Source: Bacteroidaceae bacterium
Lineage (GTDB): Bacteria; Bacteroidota; Bacteroidia; Bacteroidales; Bacteroidaceae
Reading direction: 5' to 3'
Assembly: GCA_017503235.1 (NCBI GenBank)
Contig: JAFVTL010000035.1
Span: 1 to 62,673 of the forward strand
DNA length: 62,673 bases
This document shows, piece by piece, positions 40,231 through 47,994 of this stretch (the first letter of the stretch is position 1; each line of letters opens with the position of its first letter). Under the pieces are notes generated by a model, which worked only from the letters and a program-made list of their open reading frames with translations, did not search any database and was not told where the DNA came from. The translations under genes were made by a program, and so were the position numbers.

Positions 40231-41889
40231 TTATCTCACTTCCTGATAGAGGAAACGTTTGATGCTCTTCTTCGGAGTCTTTTCAAATTCTTCGTGATAA
40301 ATCTTGATGCGTGCAATCTGTTCGTAGGCGGGAAGTTCGGTGTTCAAATTCACACGGTTTTCTTCCATTGCATTTTCTACGGCCTTGTCATCCAATCCGT
40401 GAGCGAATGCGTCATCAAAGTCCGGATAAATCAGGGCGGCCAGCTTGCCGTCTGCCTGTTGGATAATGATGCTTTCCGATACGAATGGCATGTTGTTCAG
40501 TTTGTCTTCGATTTCTTCCGGATAGATGTTCTGTCCAGATGAGCCAAGTATCATGTTCTTGCTACGTCCCTTGATGGTAATGTTGCCTTCTGTGTCCATC
40601 ACGCCAAGGTCGCCGGTATGCAACCAACCGTCCTTGTCAATAGCTTCTGCGGTAGCTTCCGGATTCTTGTAATAGCCCAACATCATATTGTCTCCCTTGC
40701 ATACGATTTCGCCTACAATGTTTTGTGGGTCGGGGCTCAGAATCTTCACTTCCATGCGGTGTACGGGCTTTCCGCAAGATGCTTGTTTGAATTCCTTCCA
40801 GTCTTCGTATGCGATGAGCGGAGCACATTCGGTCATACCGTAACCCACGGTATATGGGAAGTTGATGCTACGCATGAATTGTTCGATTTCCTGATTGAAA
40901 GCGGCACCACCCACGACAATTTCGTAAAAGTTGCCTCCGAAGGCTTGCATAATCTGTTCGCGTACCTTTTCTTTGATCTTGTCGCTTACAATAGGAACTT
41001 TCAGCAGGAATTTCATGGTCGGCGTTTCGAGTTTCGGAAGCACGTTCTTCTTGATAATCTTTTCGATGATGAGAGGAACGGCGATGACCAACTCGGGCTT
41101 GACCTCAGCAAAGGCCTGAAGGATAATCTTCGGGCTCGGTGTACGGGTGAGGAAGTAGATGTGGCAACCGAAGCACAGAGGGTAGAGGAACTCGAAGGCG
41201 AGACCATACATGTGTGCCATCGGCAACATGGATACCAGTCTGTTGCCCGGCTTCAGCGGAAGGACGTCCAATGCAAAACGAATGTTTGACCAAACGGCTC
41301 TATAGGGGAGCATGACGCCTTTTGAATAGCTGGTTGTACCTGATGTGTAGTTCAATACGGCCAGTTCATCGGGGGCTTCCTTGTGGTATTCAACATGTTG
41401 GCGACGGAAGTTGCGTGGGAATTTCTTGCCGAACATTTCGTTGAGGTGGGCACGTGCATAGTCCAACTTTTCGCTTCGTGATACGAGGATGGTGAAGTCG
41501 TTCATCAGCAGGATACCTTCCAGATTCGGCATGGCATTTTCGTTCAGGTTTTCCCATACCATGTCGCCCACGAACAGAAGCTTGGCTTCGGAGTGGTTGA
41601 CAATGTTGTGTACGTTGTCGGCCTTGAATTCATGAAGAATGGGCACTGCCACACCGCCATAGGTCAATATGGCCAGGAAGGTGACTCCCCAATGAGAACT
41701 GTTGCGTCCGCAGATGGCAATCTTGTCGCCTTTCTGTACTCCGCTTTCTTCCAGTATGATGTGGATTTTCTCTATCTTACGGGCTACATCCTTGTATTGC
41801 AGGGTGGCACCTTTGTAGTCGGTCAGGGCATCGAGGTCCCAGTTCTTTTTGATGCTTTCTTCAATGAGAGCAATGAAACTATTGTCCAT
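40231..41889 (-). CDS. Long-chain acyl-CoA/AMP-forming ligase, copy 1
   Basis: The 552-residue adenylating enzyme activates a carboxylate with ATP and joins it to CoA or another thiol. Motifs: LNYTSGTTSYSKGVMLP (P-loop, residues about 180-195), GYGMTECAPL (A5), WLHTGDLGVMD (A7), GRSKNMILGSSGQNIYPEEIE (A8) and TPKKSIKRFL near the C-terminus with the catalytic Lys. Fatty acid or long-chain substrate is likely from overall similarity, but not certain. It is closely related to the tandem copy to the right (about 80% identical by eye). It has its own promoter and lies 84 bp upstream of the DUF3943 gene. Confidence 0.93.
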   Translation of the reverse strand: MDNSFIALIEESIKKNWDLDALTDYKGATLQYKDVARKIEKIHIILEESGVQKGDKIAICGRNSSHWGVTFLAILTYGGVAVPILHEFKADNVHNIVNHSEAKLLFVGDMVWENLNENAMPNLEGILLMNDFTILVSRSEKLDYARAHLNEMFGKKFPRNFRRQHVEYHKEAPDELAVLNYTSGTTSYSKGVMLPYRAVWSNIRFALDVLPLKPGNRLVSMLPMAHMYGLAFEFLYPLCFGCHIYFLTRTPSPKIILQAFAEVKPELVIAVPLIIEKIIKKNVLPKLETPTMKFLLKVPIVSDKIKEKVREQIMQAFGGNFYEIVVGGAAFNQEIEQFMRSINFPYTVGYGMTECAPLIAYEDWKEFKQASCGKPVHRMEVKILSPDPQNIVGEIVCKGDNMMLGYYKNPEATAEAIDKDGWLHTGDLGVMDTEGNITIKGRSKNMILGSSGQNIYPEEIEDKLNNMPFVSESIIIQQADGKLAALIYPDFDDAFAHGLDDKAVENAMEENRVNLNTELPAYEQIARIKIYHEEFEKTPKKSIKRFLYQEVR

Positions 41890-42105: not shown

Positions 42106-43776
42106 TTATCGTGCTTCCTGATAGAGGAATCGTTTGATGCTCTTCTTCGGAGTCTTTTCGAATTCTTCGTGATAAATCTTCACACGCGCAATTTGTTCGT
42201 ATGCCGGACGTTCTGCATTTAGTGCCACGCGGTTGGCTTCCATCTGTTCTTCCACCTGCTTTTCAGTCATTCCGTTGCTGAAGGCCAGGTCAAAGTCGGG
42301 ATATATCAAAGCAGCCAACTTACCATCGAGTGCCTGGATGATGATGCTTTCATTAACGTATGGCATATTGTTCAGCTTGTCCTCGATTTCTTCCGGATAG
42401 ATGTTTTGTCCCGAAGGTCCGAGAAGCATGTTCTTCGAGCGTCCCTTGATGGTAAGATTGCCTTCTTCGTCCATGACGGCGAGGTCGCCGGTATGTAACC
42501 ATCCCTCTTCATCGATAACTTCATTGGTGGCTTCCTGATTCTTGTAGTATCCTAACATTACATTGTCGCCACGAGTTACAATTTCGCCTGGGATGTTCTG
42601 TGGGTCGCGACTCAAAATCTTTACTTCCATGCGTGGGGCAGCTTTGCCACACGAACCTTGCTTGAAGATTTGCCAGTCTTCGTAAGTGATGATTGGGGCA
42701 CATTCAGTCATGCCATATCCCACGGTATAAGGGAAATTGATTCTATGTAGGAAGGCTTCGACTTCTTGGTTGAATGCGGCGCCACCTACAATGATTTCGT
42801 AGAATTCGCCACCGAAGGCGTTTATCAGCTGTTCGCGTACTTTGGCCTTGATTTTGTCGTTCACAAGAGGCACACGCATCAAGAACCGCATGGTCGGCCT
42901 TTCGAGCTTCGGCAATACGTTCTTCTTGATAATCTTTTCGATGATAAGAGGTACGGCGATGACGATTTTCGGTTTCACTTCGGCAAATGCCTGAAGGATA
43001 ATCTTCGGGCTCGGCGTACGGGTGAGGAAGTACACATGGCATCCGGCGCAGAATTCGTAAAGGAATTCGAATGCAAGACCGTACATGTGTGCCATCGGCA
43101 GCATGGATACGATTTTGTCGCCGGCCTTCAAAGCCTTGCCTAATTTTTCCTTACCGAATTCGACGTTTGACCACAAGGCACGGCTTGGCAGCATAACCCC
43201 TTTCGAGAAGCTGGTGGTGCCCGATGTGTAGTTGAGAACGAGCATTTCTTCGGAGCTGTCCTTGTGATAGCTGATGTGTTCCTTACGGAAGTTTCTCGGA
43301 TATTTCTGGCCGAACAAAGCGTTGAGGTTCTCACGTGCGTGATTCAGCTTTTCGCTTCGTGATACGAGGAGGGTGAAATCGTTCATCAGCAGGATGCCTT
43401 CGAGGTTCGGCATGGCACTTTCATCCAGGTTTTCCCATACCACATCTCCTACAAAAAGAAGCTTGGCTTCGGAATGGTTGACGATATTGTGTACTTGGTC
43501 GGGCTTGAATTCGTGGAGGATGGGAACAATGACTGCTCCATAGGTTACAACGGACAGGAAGGTGACTCCCCAATGGGAACTATTACGTCCACAGATGGCT
43601 ATTTTATCACCTTTCTTTACGCCGCTTTCTTCCAGTATGATGTGTATTTTTTCAATTTTGCGGGCTACGTCTTTGTATTGTAGGGTAGCTCCTTTGTAAT
43701 CGGTCAATGCATCTGCATCCCAGTTTTTCTTGATACTTTCTTCGATTAAAGCTATGAAACTCTTTTCGCTCTCCAT
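42106..43776 (-). CDS. Long-chain acyl-CoA/AMP-forming ligase, copy 2
   Basis: The 556-residue paralogue has the same motifs as its neighbour: LNYTSGTTSFSKGVMLP, GYGMTECAPI, GWLHTGDLAVMD, GRSKNMLLGPSGQNIYPEE and TPKKSIKRFLYQEAR. Long blocks are identical (ALTDYKGATLQYKDVARKIE; TRTPSPKIILQAFAEVKP), while differences concentrate in the acyl-binding half (GKEKLGKALKAGDK versus ALDVLPLKPGN, MRFLMRVPL versus MKFLLKVPI) and the C-terminal domain, suggesting a duplication with possible change of substrate. It has its own promoter and terminator, so the two copies are separately regulated. Confidence 0.93.
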   Translation of the reverse strand: MESEKSFIALIEESIKKNWDADALTDYKGATLQYKDVARKIEKIHIILEESGVKKGDKIAICGRNSSHWGVTFLSVVTYGAVIVPILHEFKPDQVHNIVNHSEAKLLFVGDVVWENLDESAMPNLEGILLMNDFTLLVSRSEKLNHARENLNALFGQKYPRNFRKEHISYHKDSSEEMLVLNYTSGTTSFSKGVMLPSRALWSNVEFGKEKLGKALKAGDKIVSMLPMAHMYGLAFEFLYEFCAGCHVYFLTRTPSPKIILQAFAEVKPKIVIAVPLIIEKIIKKNVLPKLERPTMRFLMRVPLVNDKIKAKVREQLINAFGGEFYEIIVGGAAFNQEVEAFLHRINFPYTVGYGMTECAPIITYEDWQIFKQGSCGKAAPRMEVKILSRDPQNIPGEIVTRGDNVMLGYYKNQEATNEVIDEEGWLHTGDLAVMDEEGNLTIKGRSKNMLLGPSGQNIYPEEIEDKLNNMPYVNESIIIQALDGKLAALIYPDFDLAFSNGMTEKQVEEQMEANRVALNAERPAYEQIARVKIYHEEFEKTPKKSIKRFLYQEAR

Positions 43777-44577: not shown

Positions 44578-44635
44578 TTCACCACAGATGACACTATCTT
44601 GTTTTTCTGTGTAAATCTGTGTAATCTGTGGTGAA
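44578..44635. repeat. Dispersed CACCACAGAT hairpin repeat, copy 1
   Basis: TTCACCACAGAT (44578-44589) and ATCTGTGGTGAA (44624-44635) are perfect inverted arms around a 34-bp core containing TCTGTGTAAATCTGTG. The 19-mer ATCTGTGTAATCTGTGGTG (44615-44633) recurs exactly at 55839-55857. It sits between the YggS start and the DUF4494 stop. Confidence 0.85.
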
Positions 44636-44642
44636 GAAAAGA

Positions 44643-45113
44643 TTATGCTTGTGGAAACTCCGGCTTCACATCAGGGTCGGCGCTGAACGGAAATACATCC
44701 ATGATGGCGGTTTCGGCCATGGATGAAATGACGTAATCCATCATGCTTCCCTTCATGCCTTCGTCCAGTTTCTTTACCGCGTCGCGCAAGTCGGCTGCCT
44801 GCACCAGTACGTTGGACGATGTCTTCTTTTCGGCACCGCTCTTTTCGTCGAGTGAGATGAAAGTGAGCTTGCACTTGAACCAACGGTCGGCACTGTCCTC
44901 TTCGCAGAAGAACAGTTCGGTATAGTTGGCGCGCTTGATGTCGGCGATGGTAAATTCACCGCTGATGTAGGGAGACACTTCCTCGATGATGCGAGCTTCG
45001 GCTTCAGTAAAGCTGAGCGCATCCACCAGATAAGGTTCGGTCACTTTCTTGTTCATTCCGTTTTCGAGGGTCTTTTCATAACGGACCTTGCATTCAAACC
45101 ATGTATGCATCAT
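44643..45113 (-). CDS. DUF4494 family protein
   Basis: The 156-residue protein opens MMHTWFECKVRYEKTLENG and repeats a similar pattern in its second half (DRWFKCKLTFISLDEKSG), i.e. two copies of a W/F-C-K-V module as expected for DUF4494. The C-terminus includes MAETAIMDVFPF. No signal peptide or membrane segment; it should be cytosolic. The start could be the first or the second Met. Function unknown. Confidence 0.85.
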   Translation of the reverse strand: MMHTWFECKVRYEKTLENGMNKKVTEPYLVDALSFTEAEARIIEEVSPYISGEFTIADIKRANYTELFFCEEDSADRWFKCKLTFISLDEKSGAEKKTSSNVLVQAADLRDAVKKLDEGMKGSMMDYVISSMAETAIMDVFPFSADPDVKPEFPQA

Positions 45114-45156: not shown

Positions 45157-45187
45157 CAAAGGTAAACCAATAATTTAAATGGGCAAA
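45157..45187 (-). promoter_or_regulatory. Promoter of the DUF4494 gene
   Basis: On the minus strand TTTG (45184-45187), a 19-bp spacer and TACCTTTG (45157-45164) match the Bacteroidetes consensus. Confidence 0.8.
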
Positions 45188-45280
45188 ACAATGGGGCCGA
45201 AAAACACCTCCCCAATAAAAACGTATACAAATGCTTTCACACGTTTCACGCATCGTTAATTCCTTGGGTGCCAGTGCGTA

Positions 45281-45697
45281 GAGATGAAAGGAGTGGGGAA
45301 AATCGCCTTCCACACGTTTCACCTCAACGATTGGTGGGCATTATCTGCACACTTTGTCATGCGGCGGAAGGGGTGACGAAGCATAGAAAGTTTTTTGAAC
45401 TTCCATAGGAAGTATTAAGAACTTTCATAGGAAGTTCATGATATTTCCTATCGTGCGTTTTGATATTTCCATAGGAACGTCTTGCACTTTGCAAAGCATT
45501 GAGTTATGATTCGTAAAGCATTGAGTTACGACTCGTAAAACGTTGAGTTACGATTCGTAGTATGCCGTACCGCGACCCGTAGTATGCCGTACCGCGACCC
45601 GTAGGATGCCGAGTTACGAGTCTTGGTACGTTGAGGTAGGATTTCCATCCACTTTGTGAAACGTGTGAATGCCGGATTTCCGTCTTCCTTTCATCTA
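45281..45697. repeat. 417-bp element: imperfect 42-bp inverted ends around a 22-bp-period array
   Basis: The 750-bp gap between DUF4494 and DUF554 holds no convincing gene. Its core (45396-45659) divides into 12 consecutive 22-bp units with no gap, plus a weaker unit at 45374-45395. Units 45550-45571 and 45572-45593 share 20 of 22 bases; others are diverged, yet most contain a short dyad: ACTTCC-ATA-GGAAGT (centre 45406), next centres 45428 and 45472, TTATGATTCGTAA (45510), TTACGACTCGTAA (45532) and TACGATTCGTA (45554). Inverted arms 45281-45322 and 45656-45697 match at 32 of 42 positions, including a perfect 12-bp CACACGTTTCAC block and a perfect 11-bp AGATGAAAGGA block. A third CACACGTTTCAC lies at 45238-45249. 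Since 22 is not a multiple of three, a protein repeat is unlikely. Confidence 0.85.
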
Positions 45698-45802
45698 TAT
45701 CCTTTGACAATCAGCAACTTGAATGGCCTTGAAACGTATGAAAGCAGTTGGATACTATTTCTTTAGTAGGGGAGTTAAATGCAAAATCCATCCGCATTTC
45801 CA

Positions 45803-45832
45803 TTTGTCATGTGTAAATTATAGCTACATTTG
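45803..45832 (+). promoter_or_regulatory. Promoter of the DUF554 gene
   Basis: TTTG (45803-45806), 18 bp and TACATTTG (45825-45832) resemble the Bacteroidetes consensus with a slightly short spacer; the ATG is 32 bp downstream. Confidence 0.6.
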
Positions 45833-45864: not shown

Positions 45865-46554
45865 ATGATAGGAACCATCGTAAACACTTGCACGATTATC
45901 GTGGGCAGTATTGTAGGCGCCGTAATGAATCGGGGAATCAAGGAAAAGTATAAGGATACATTGTATACAGGATTGGGATTGGCTTGCTTGGGCATTGGCC
46001 TGAATGCCGTGATAAGCAATTTCGGCAAGAGCGAGTATCCGGTGTTGTTTATTGTATCGATTGCCATAGGGAGTGTGGTCGGCACAGCACTGAACCTCGA
46101 TGGACGGTTTGCCGACTTGATTAACAAACGCTCAAAGGGGAATCAGAACAACAACCTTGCCGACGGGCTTTCCACGGCCATCCTGCTCTATTGCATCGGC
46201 CCTCTTGCCATGCTTGGGCCGGTCATCAGTGCATTGAAGGGCGACAATACTTTCCTCTATACCAATGCGACACTCGACTTGGTGACATCGACCGTCTTTG
46301 CCAGCACTTATGGCGTCTGGATGATATTGGCTGCACCCGTCCTCTTTTGTTGGCAGGGCATGTTCTATCTGGTAGCAAAGGTGTCGAGTACTGCCATCAG
46401 TGAGGCGCTTATGGCGGAACTGCTGATTGTCGGGGGATTGATGATAGTCGCTTCGGGACTCTCTCTGCTCAAGCTGAAAGATTGCAAGACACTGAACATG
46501 TTGCCTTCGTTGCTCGTGCCCGTCGTGTGGTTTTTGGTGAAAAGTATTTTATAG
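45865..46554 (+). CDS. DUF554 family membrane protein
   Basis: The 229-residue protein begins MIGTIVNTCTIIVGSIVGAV and has about seven hydrophobic segments with the family's GTxxN and LYCIGPLAMLGPVISALKGD stretches (small-residue-rich, typical of DUF554/YqgA). It is an inner-membrane protein, function unknown, possibly a transporter. It is flanked on both sides by noncoding arrays with 22-bp period. Confidence 0.88.
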   Translation: MIGTIVNTCTIIVGSIVGAVMNRGIKEKYKDTLYTGLGLACLGIGLNAVISNFGKSEYPVLFIVSIAIGSVVGTALNLDGRFADLINKRSKGNQNNNLADGLSTAILLYCIGPLAMLGPVISALKGDNTFLYTNATLDLVTSTVFASTYGVWMILAAPVLFCWQGMFYLVAKVSSTAISEALMAELLIVGGLMIVASGLSLLKLKDCKTLNMLPSLLVPVVWFLVKSIL

Positions 46555-46609
46555 GGAGTTTTTGGATAAGAAAGAGTGATTGAAACTCCACCTACCAGTA
46601 GCGGCTTTT

Positions 46610-46735
46610 TCTGGTGACCAGGAGAAGCCGTTGCTGGTGACCAGGAGAGCACTCTCCTGCTCGGAGGAAAGTACTTTCCTGCTCGGAGCATGTTAATATC
46701 CTGCTCGGAGGAGATTAATATACTGGTCGGTACTA
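46610..46735. repeat. Second 22-bp-period array of short palindromes
   Basis: Six units follow the DUF554 gene: CTGGTGACCAG (46611-46621 and 46634-46644, a perfect dyad around one G), then TCCTGCTCGGAGGA-type units starting at 46655, 46677, 46699 and a variant TACTGGTCGGTACT at 46721, spaced exactly 22 bp. Between units lie further dyads, GGAGAG-CA-CTCTCC and the perfect palindrome GGAAAGTACTTTCC. The architecture (period 22, dyad in each unit, pairwise sequence drift) is the same as in the array upstream of DUF554 although the sequences differ. Confidence 0.8.
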
Positions 46736-46785
46736 TTTTGTCGTTTTATAAACGGCTGAAAATGAATAAAATACATTTCGGTATT

Positions 46786-47994
46786 CTATTCTTCTTTCTT
46801 CCTCAGTTTCTTCATGCTTTCCTGCGTCAGCTCTGAAATGACGTCGGAGGAGAGGCGCATGGCCAGAATAGGGTCGAGGTTGAACTGTTCGGCCAGTTCG
46901 CGTTGGATTTTGTCCAGCTCGTTGAATTGTCCCAAACTCTGTCTCTGGAAATCCTTGTCCTCCAGACTCATGTTTTGAGGAGTATAGATGCCGGCAATGA
47001 TTTTCTCCGCCCGTTTGCGCAGTTCTTTCTTGAACAGGCGTTCGGTGGTTTGTTGGTATTCCTTGCTTTTTTGGTCGAGTTCCTCTTGTTGGGTTTGCGA
47101 TAATTGTGCGACCGAATCCGAAGGAGTCGGTATCACGTAGTAGCTTTCGTGGGTATCTTCAGCCCGATTGCTGGGAGGAAGTTCCTTTTGGTTGGCCGAT
47201 GTTTCCTGAGCAAACTGGATGCTCTCTTCAGAAGCCGGTTCGTCCTTGAATCCGTAGTAAACCAATCCCAACAACAACCCTACGGCGGCTACTTTACCGA
47301 TAGAGATTCCAAGGTCGATGGAGGTGGATTGCTGAAGTGCCTTTCTCATCTCGGCAATGTTGGCATATCGTTTCTCGGGAGCCTTTTGGGTAGCCTTGTG
47401 AATAACCCGTTGGATGCCTGCCGACAAGTTGCAGAAACTGAACAGATATTCCATGACCTTCCCCAAGGAATAGATGTCGCACGCCTTGTAGTTGATAGAC
47501 GCCTGATCCTCGAAAAGCTCGGGAGCCGTGTACTTTTCCTTGATTAGGAAGAAGGAGGGCTGGCAATGGAGGTACGTCCACGCCGGGTTGGCCAGTTTCA
47601 CATCGTGTGCCTTGCGGGTGATGAAGATGTTCTCCGGACGTATGTTGAGGTGACACAACTCTTTTGTATGTAGGTATTCCACCGCATCGAGCAGTTGACT
47701 CATCAGAAATTTGGCTTCTTTCACGCTATGGATATCCAATGAATCTTCCACCAAGGCCAGGTTGAGGGGAAGCGACGGGGTATACTCCAATGCGATGTAG
47801 CTGCCCTGCTCATCCTGCTCAAGCCCGAGATAGCGAAGCAGGTTCGGGTGGTTGCATTGCAAGCCGGTTTCAGCTTCATCGGCAAATGCTTTCCGATAAG
47901 CATTTATTCCGGCGAACTCCTTGAGCGGGCGCTTGATGTAGAAACGCTGCTTGTTGGTGTCGGTTCCTATGGTCATGGATTCTGTGATTTTCAT
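46786..47994 (-). CDS. Membrane pseudokinase (Ser/Thr-kinase-like)
   Basis: The 402-residue protein has a eukaryotic-type kinase fold at residues 1-225: beta-3 Lys in RFYIKRPL (Lys21), helix-C Glu in FADEAE, IALEYTP hinge, catalytic-loop HLNIRPENI (115-123), YTAPELFE and CDIYSLGKVMEYL. The HRD Asp is Asn (HLN) and DFG is replaced by ANP (135-137), so phosphotransfer is unlikely. A single membrane helix follows (KVAAVGLLLGLVYYGF, about 234-249), then a periplasmic linker and a long charged helical C-terminus. It may be a sensor or scaffold. It is divergent from an aminotransferase gene with both promoters visible. Confidence 0.85.
   Translation of the reverse strand: MKITESMTIGTDTNKQRFYIKRPLKEFAGINAYRKAFADEAETGLQCNHPNLLRYLGLEQDEQGSYIALEYTPSLPLNLALVEDSLDIHSVKEAKFLMSQLLDAVEYLHTKELCHLNIRPENIFITRKAHDVKLANPAWTYLHCQPSFFLIKEKYTAPELFEDQASINYKACDIYSLGKVMEYLFSFCNLSAGIQRVIHKATQKAPEKRYANIAEMRKALQQSTSIDLGISIGKVAAVGLLLGLVYYGFKDEPASEESIQFAQETSANQKELPPSNRAEDTHESYYVIPTPSDSVAQLSQTQQEELDQKSKEYQQTTERLFKKELRKRAEKIIAGIYTPQNMSLEDKDFQRQSLGQFNELDKIQRELAEQFNLDPILAMRLSSDVISELTQESMKKLRKKEE

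Follow-up and report, generated by a model that had tools for sequence, protein, structure and literature searches.

BrickBuilt of Porphyromonas gingivalis, the closest described relative of the element reported here, is an intergenic non-coding MITE which, according to the account in PMC4596501, occupies 19 sites and is built of 23-nt tandem units without spacers. In the same account its units are imperfect within a copy, its flanks carry inverted ends, some copies consist of repeats only and stem-loops are predicted (PMC4596501); BrickBuilt is also named in a review (PMC10969869). That description further mentions 22-, 23- and 41-nt tandem repeats reported earlier in P. gingivalis W83, as well as MITE464/PgRS, a miniature element of the same species with an internal 41-nt tandem repeat (PMC4596501). 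Our literature search found no comparable mobile repeat class outside Porphyromonas. The REP/BIME and REPIN elements, with their RAYT transposases, are short intergenic palindromic repeats that are dispersed and often alternate in orientation.

Here we describe an element from a Bacteroidaceae bacterium, located in a DNA stretch of 62,673 nucleotides (contig JAFVTL010000035.1 of assembly GCA_017503235.1; hereafter the window), the features of which are collected in Table 1. By architecture this element is BrickBuilt-like: as in the description of BrickBuilt, it is intergenic, non-coding and multi-copy, consists of imperfect units without spacers, is flanked by inverted ends and has copies reduced to repeats. 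However, its units are 22 bp long and of another sequence, whereas those described for BrickBuilt are 23 nt; its inverted ends measure about 100 bp, whereas those given for BrickBuilt measure 12 nt; and it comes from another family, in which there are several array families and the inspected copies mostly lack long inverted ends. The 23-nt BrickBuilt consensus gave no match with up to two mismatches, either in the window's own genome or in 393 others from its order, a search run without a positive control and with no P. gingivalis genome known among those covered. MITE464/PgRS is likewise a miniature element carrying an internal tandem repeat, but by its description in PMC4596501, on which this comparison is based, the repeat is 41 nt long and of other sequence. 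REP, BIME and REPIN are similar as dispersed short intergenic palindromic repeats; however, 22-bp phased arrays are not REP doublets, and a RAYT-driven REP/BIME system was rejected, given that the Y1 transposase domain PF01797 was not found in the own genome (84% complete assembly; controls found in 6/14). A CRISPR array, which the original prediction had already set aside, was rejected since the 22-bp units are contiguous, unique spacers are absent and there was no Rfam match at cut-off. A known structured RNA was rejected as well, with 0 Rfam matches at cut-off in 16 loci; the 8 hits in the window stretch (best E 0.33) all fell well short of their cut-offs.

Table 1. Positions in the window of the element, of a second array and of the neighbouring genes.
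Feature	Position	Strand	Remarks
Element as a whole	45223-45755		533 bp, non-coding, between the DUF4494 gene and the divergent DUF554 gene
Left imperfect inverted end	45223-45322	+	about 100 bp; 69/100 ungapped against the reverse complement of 45656-45755
22-bp-phased array, family B	about 45374-45637	+	lag-22 clusters; about 12 diverged units
Right imperfect inverted end	45656-45755	+	about 100 bp; copies on contigs C12 (89%) and C28 (93%)
22-bp-phased array, family A	46596-46771	+	between two convergent genes; sequence unrelated to family B
DUF4494 gene (PF14902), flanking	44643-45113	-	
DUF554 gene (PF04474), flanking	45865-46554	+	
Gene with protein-kinase domain (PF00069), flanking	46786-47994	-	

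The 22-bp period claimed from the sequence alone was upheld: over 45281-45697 the identity at lag 22 was 0.491, against a shuffle mean of 0.252 (sd 0.021) and a highest value of 0.338 at any lag from 1 to 60 in 500 dinucleotide shuffles. The best 110-bp stretch of the element reaches 77% identity at this lag, and TRF reports three 22-bp arrays here, with 0% indels. Adjacent units of the window array agree at 7-19 of 22 positions, the weakest two of the 11 joins, 45418 to 45440 and 45616 to 45638, having 7/22 each. The original prediction had described a 417-bp element at 45281-45697 with twelve indel-free units at 45396-45659 and inverted arms matching at 32/42 positions. A non-coding array within inverted ends is indeed present, but the true extent is larger (45223-45755) and the arms are longer than claimed, about 100 bp each, with 72% identity when gaps are allowed. 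The array itself is placed slightly to the left of the predicted units because the twelfth of them falls on the arm side of a break in the C28 copy. Three ORFs of 60 aa or more (70, 68 and 76 aa) overlap 45223-45755, all mechanical and none a transposase gene. The 533-bp element lies within the size range of MITEs (50-1000 bp, without a transposase gene inside) and, like its C12 copy, has terminal inverted repeats.

A search of its own assembly (2.6 Mb, 145 contigs) with 45200-45760 returned 44 matches in all at E up to 1; the several dispersed copies expected of a MITE are thus found in the own genome. A second near-full-length copy lies on C12 (query 33-550, 82%) and includes the inverted ends. 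The partial copy on C28 comprises the array plus the right end, separated by about 180 bp of other sequence, while C133 has an array-only match (77%) and C14, C39, C72 and others have shorter ones. In the C28 copy (L003, about 1790-1925) we also noted a different inverted repeat, GTCATCCAGAGCGTAACGAAGGATCTCGG ... GTCTGGATGAC, between array and right end. The three aligned family-B arrays (window, C12 and C28) are collinear in unit order and 88-91% identical from copy to copy, against 62-68% between adjacent units within a copy, which indicates that arrays already diverged were copied whole; the C12 array is one 22-bp unit shorter than the others. End sequences were located six times in this genome, spread over four loci, the further copies of the left end being on C12 (84-88%) and C129 (76-77%), the latter a solo end.

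A transposase was not recognised among the ORFs of the window or around the C129 solo end, inspection by eye of the flanks of the C22 and C12 copies revealed no recognisable target-site duplication, and long inverted ends were not seen on the array-only copies inspected (C133, family A). The element had no match in a plasmid BLAST, and among 59 relatives, with up to 10 candidates scored per genome, BLAST found matches in one only, of 46 and 58 bp. Motifs of the type TTTCACC / GGTGAAAG, which resemble the ends of the element, adjoin arrays of other loci and species (L004 about 1780-1950, L192 12140-12460, L223 12166-12523); a GTGAAA/GTGAAAG motif near some arrays was matched 7 times in 2.1 Mb (two of these matches overlap), and control patterns had 0.

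The family-A array is matched at about 30 places of the genome, its own among them. In the 28 copies that were oriented, the units follow one common order that starts with GC-centred and finishes with TA-centred ones, and most copies, read by eye, have the same outward terminal half-unit, often with a C-run and an A/T-run after it. As for the surroundings of the family-B element, sequences at about 45157-45164 (minus) and 45825-45832 (plus), read by eye against TAnnTTTG, which we take to be the promoter consensus, would place it upstream of both divergent promoters and probably outside them. Judged by the DUF4494 protein, the closest named loci come from gut MAGs, those of roe deer included, that bear the title Bacteroides or Bacteroidaceae; Phocaeicola follows next. 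The same assembly holds a second DUF554 gene, 93% identical to that of the window (G000:C99 2696-3382, L102), and the window has two adjacent similar ORFs of 552 and 556 aa (40231-41889 and 42106-43776), AMP-dependent ligase-like by eye, in apparent tandem duplication. Short intergenic inverted repeats of the type ATCTGTGTAATCTGTGGTG / CGGATTACACGGATT were seen in the window at 44581-44635 and in L306, a spacer of the relative G009, in one case at a place that is taken by a family-A array in the genome of the window.

To assess how frequent such arrays are, we counted the intergenic pieces (120 bp or longer) in which some 66-bp stretch reached 62% identity or more at a given lag. In 80 named loci, nearly all from Bacteroidaceae (some titles say only Bacteroidales or Prevotellaceae), 30 of 461 pieces qualified at lag 22, against 6 at lag 21, 3 at 23, 3 at 11, 14 at the harmonic 44 and at most one at every remaining lag from 8 to 60; these loci are a non-random set, as all surround DUF4494, hence with recurring spacers, and a few records are the same genome twice. 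With genes kept in, the same loci gave 34 clusters at lag 22, 7 at 21, 5 at 23 and 10 at 48, and those at lag 48 disappeared after ORF removal. The own-genome sample had 5/97 pieces at lag 22, yet 6/97 at lag 9. The 22 peak was not seen in the small samples from other families of the order (1/84 pieces at lag 22 and 2 at lag 23; 0/84 at lag 22 in more stretches of five other-family genomes) or from E. coli K-12 (0/47 at lag 22).

The arrays of this class comprise roughly 4-12 units of 22 bp (21-23), and most are intergenic: by a simple greedy ORF caller, a called ORF is overlapped by half or more in 3/58 named arrays and in 5/43 arrays of the own and related genomes. Convergent spacers hold 29 of the 83 arrays with both flanks present, against 134/761 in the background (odds ratio 2.5, one-sided p 0.0003), an excess in which the spacers are partly non-independent and some orthologous ones are counted repeatedly; for the own genome and relatives alone p was 0.055. 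Divergent spacers hold 21/83 arrays, which is the background rate (196/761).

Other species have array families of their own. The B. stercorirosoris array has 18 matching places in its genome, itself included, and the 9 aligned are all collinear; in two other genomes searched it matched one 24-bp stretch only (E 0.01). BLAST found the array of another Bacteroides MAG at 10 places at home, one being the array itself and two being short; in four further genomes it had no match below E 0.03. The arrays of families A, B and this B. stercorirosoris family are, then, collinear dispersed copies.

Orthologous spacers may have an array, none, or one of other sequence. Both genes of a convergent spacer that contains a family-A array lie side by side in 2 of 7 relatives searched, and the array is absent from both, G060 having a short spacer with one terminator-like hairpin and G009 a different sequence. 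Beyond the gene that adjoins the C133 array, G072 has a stretch that by eye resembles an array, one of another family. The DHODH/PhoH convergent spacer carries arrays in several species, some related but most of other sequence; among spacers shorter than 500 bp, 9/12 loci (103-206 bp) had no array, in a count that omitted some known array loci. The DUF4494 spacer showed no lag-22 signal in 27 of 29 relatives' loci, and weak lag-22 arrays, dyadic by eye and unlike the window's in sequence, lie just upstream of DUF4494 in L114 (about 2026-2130, 0.56) and L118 (about 1274-1371, 0.53). P. vulgatus (G011) had no lag-22 array in 160 kb, but one in its DUF4494 locus. Synteny through DUF554 was uninformative because its neighbours differ between genomes, and the LysO/MacB spacer clustering (P. 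vulgatus, P. sartorii, P. plebeius and one MAG) carries no claim, since just one locus had both genes together.

Taking into consideration that the copies are dispersed and collinear, that families are not shared between the genomes searched, that arrays are present or absent at orthologous places and that they avoid genes, we propose that they are miniature mobile elements. We put at about 0.6 the probability that the window element is a MITE-like non-coding composite, probably non-autonomous, and a member of a Bacteroidaceae-wide class of miniature intergenic elements; for the window copy, MITE-like follows from its inverted ends. Movement of the arrays we infer from their sequences, none having been observed between strains. 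Copying of the elements would fall to an enzyme, of the host or of a mobile element, that works in trans on the array or on its ends; the elements would insert where little harm results and would turn over fast. The units may have originated by tandem duplication of a short palindrome and then decayed by substitution, in which case the dyads would be mostly a relic of that origin. Of the three roles that the original prediction had offered, that of a mobile repeat expanding by duplication is the best supported as to mobility; expansion was seen only as the gain or loss of one 22-bp unit.

Mobility alone, however, gives no account of the sharp 22-bp period. Since 22 bp corresponds to two helical turns, every repeat would face the same side of the DNA for an array-bound protein. 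It is possible, if less than probable, that what is conserved across the Bacteroidaceae is the period and not the sequence, and that a protein "ruler", either one that coats the DNA or the enzyme that mobilises the arrays, produces or requires repeats at a distance of exactly two turns, with species-specific families evolving along with it.

Because the period is so sharply 22 (±1, across sequences of different families), the main rival is a phased protein-binding array, in which a dimeric protein (nucleoid, insulator or regulator) would occupy inverted half-sites every 22 bp on one helix face and selection would keep them; we consider this unlikely. In its favour is the enrichment of inverted halves. 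With a strict control that permutes unit columns and retains the period, 35 own-genome arrays had 62 strict dyads, against 15.5 expected, and 8 arrays of relatives had 11, against 2.4; by a second measure, 22/43 own and related arrays and 18/42 named arrays (the 58 minus periods 21 and 23, ORF overlaps and duplicates) exceeded 95% of 60 permutations. As 40/85 arrays beat 95% of the column shuffles, about half are measurably dyadic; the other 45/85 have no dyad above control, which speaks against binding. In the window array, dyads do exist at the six centres named in the original prediction, with 6 of 7 pairs at 45406, 5 at 45428, 4 at 45472, 5 at 45510, 6 at 45532 and 5 at 45554, but their significance failed the period-keeping control (2 centres with at least 6/7 pairs, against 0.91 expected, p 0.21).

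Neither did the idea that symmetry rather than sequence is conserved survive, as copies keep their sequence and, in both families tested (A and B), the halves vary almost independently except at three inner pairs of A. Family B has a clear dyad axis (0.585 paired, against 0.07-0.41 at other centres), but this value is hardly above the 0.563 of independent columns. Among 88 distinct family-A units of mixed orientation, pairs 7-14, 9-12 and 10-11 alone exceed shuffled partners, and the outermost linker pairs stay below the level of shuffled partners; in 98% of the distinct units the innermost pair is self-complementary, and most outer pairs are independent, which fits half-sites better than a hairpin. 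In one well-conserved family-A unit, the left half GAAAGT is kept in 24/28 copies and its perfect partner in 2 of these 24 (hand count). The common repertoire that left and right family-A half-units had seemed to share was set aside, because arrays of either orientation had gone into one pool; after orientation, similarity was 0.665 for core halves (null 0.542, maximum 0.722), 0.153 for 11-bp half-units (null 0.059, maximum 0.188) and 0.535 for linker halves (null 0.325, maximum 0.458), the sole measure above null.

Also in favour of a binding array, the dyad arrays just upstream of an HU-HIG DNA-binding protein gene (L202 7647-7797, L207 6673-6823, L209 7742-7904) are orthologous and retain the dyad through a stem change that is matched in every L209 unit relative to L202 and L207, the unit length being 23 in place of 22. 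Against it, families A and B of one genome have by eye no obvious half-site in common, so that a single sequence-specific protein could hardly read both, and one orthologous spacer lacks a family-A array.

A neutral minisatellite, arising by local slippage or hairpin-primed duplication and then decaying without mobility, is less probable still as a general explanation. The other-sequence arrays in orthologous spacers, the concerted change of all L209 units and the gain and loss of whole 22-bp units, by which copies differ, would all suit it; however, slippage supplies no reason for one sharp unit length, and whole arrays recur as collinear dispersed copies in two genomes. Such copies cannot arise locally, which contradicts a minisatellite as the sole cause for families A, B and that of B. 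stercorirosoris, although single-copy arrays could have originated in this way.

Least probable is a multi-hairpin RNA formed in transcripts (attenuator, terminator or stability element), for while the inverted arms are about 5 nt apart over the named arrays and both the convergent-spacer excess and the L209 stem change would agree with it, the near-independence of the halves in families A and B outside the three inner A pairs, the apparent terminator of the upstream gene (by eye) that precedes the array in several DHODH/PhoH spacers, the place of the window copy upstream of both divergent genes and the lack of Rfam matches at cut-off in the 16 loci all weigh against it, and for the window copy, where the original prediction had raised this role, the family-B halves show no stem-like covariation.

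Returning to the miniature mobile elements, these results suggest a little-described class in which related gut bacteria use the same 22-letter spacing with other letters. If the class holds, a visible share of the intergenic DNA of common gut bacteria, 30 of the 461 spacers (120 bp or longer) sampled, would be a fast-evolving and apparently mobile repeat, and this would matter for the annotation of promoters and small RNAs, for strain typing and for the question of what determines the repeat length of bacterial minisatellites.
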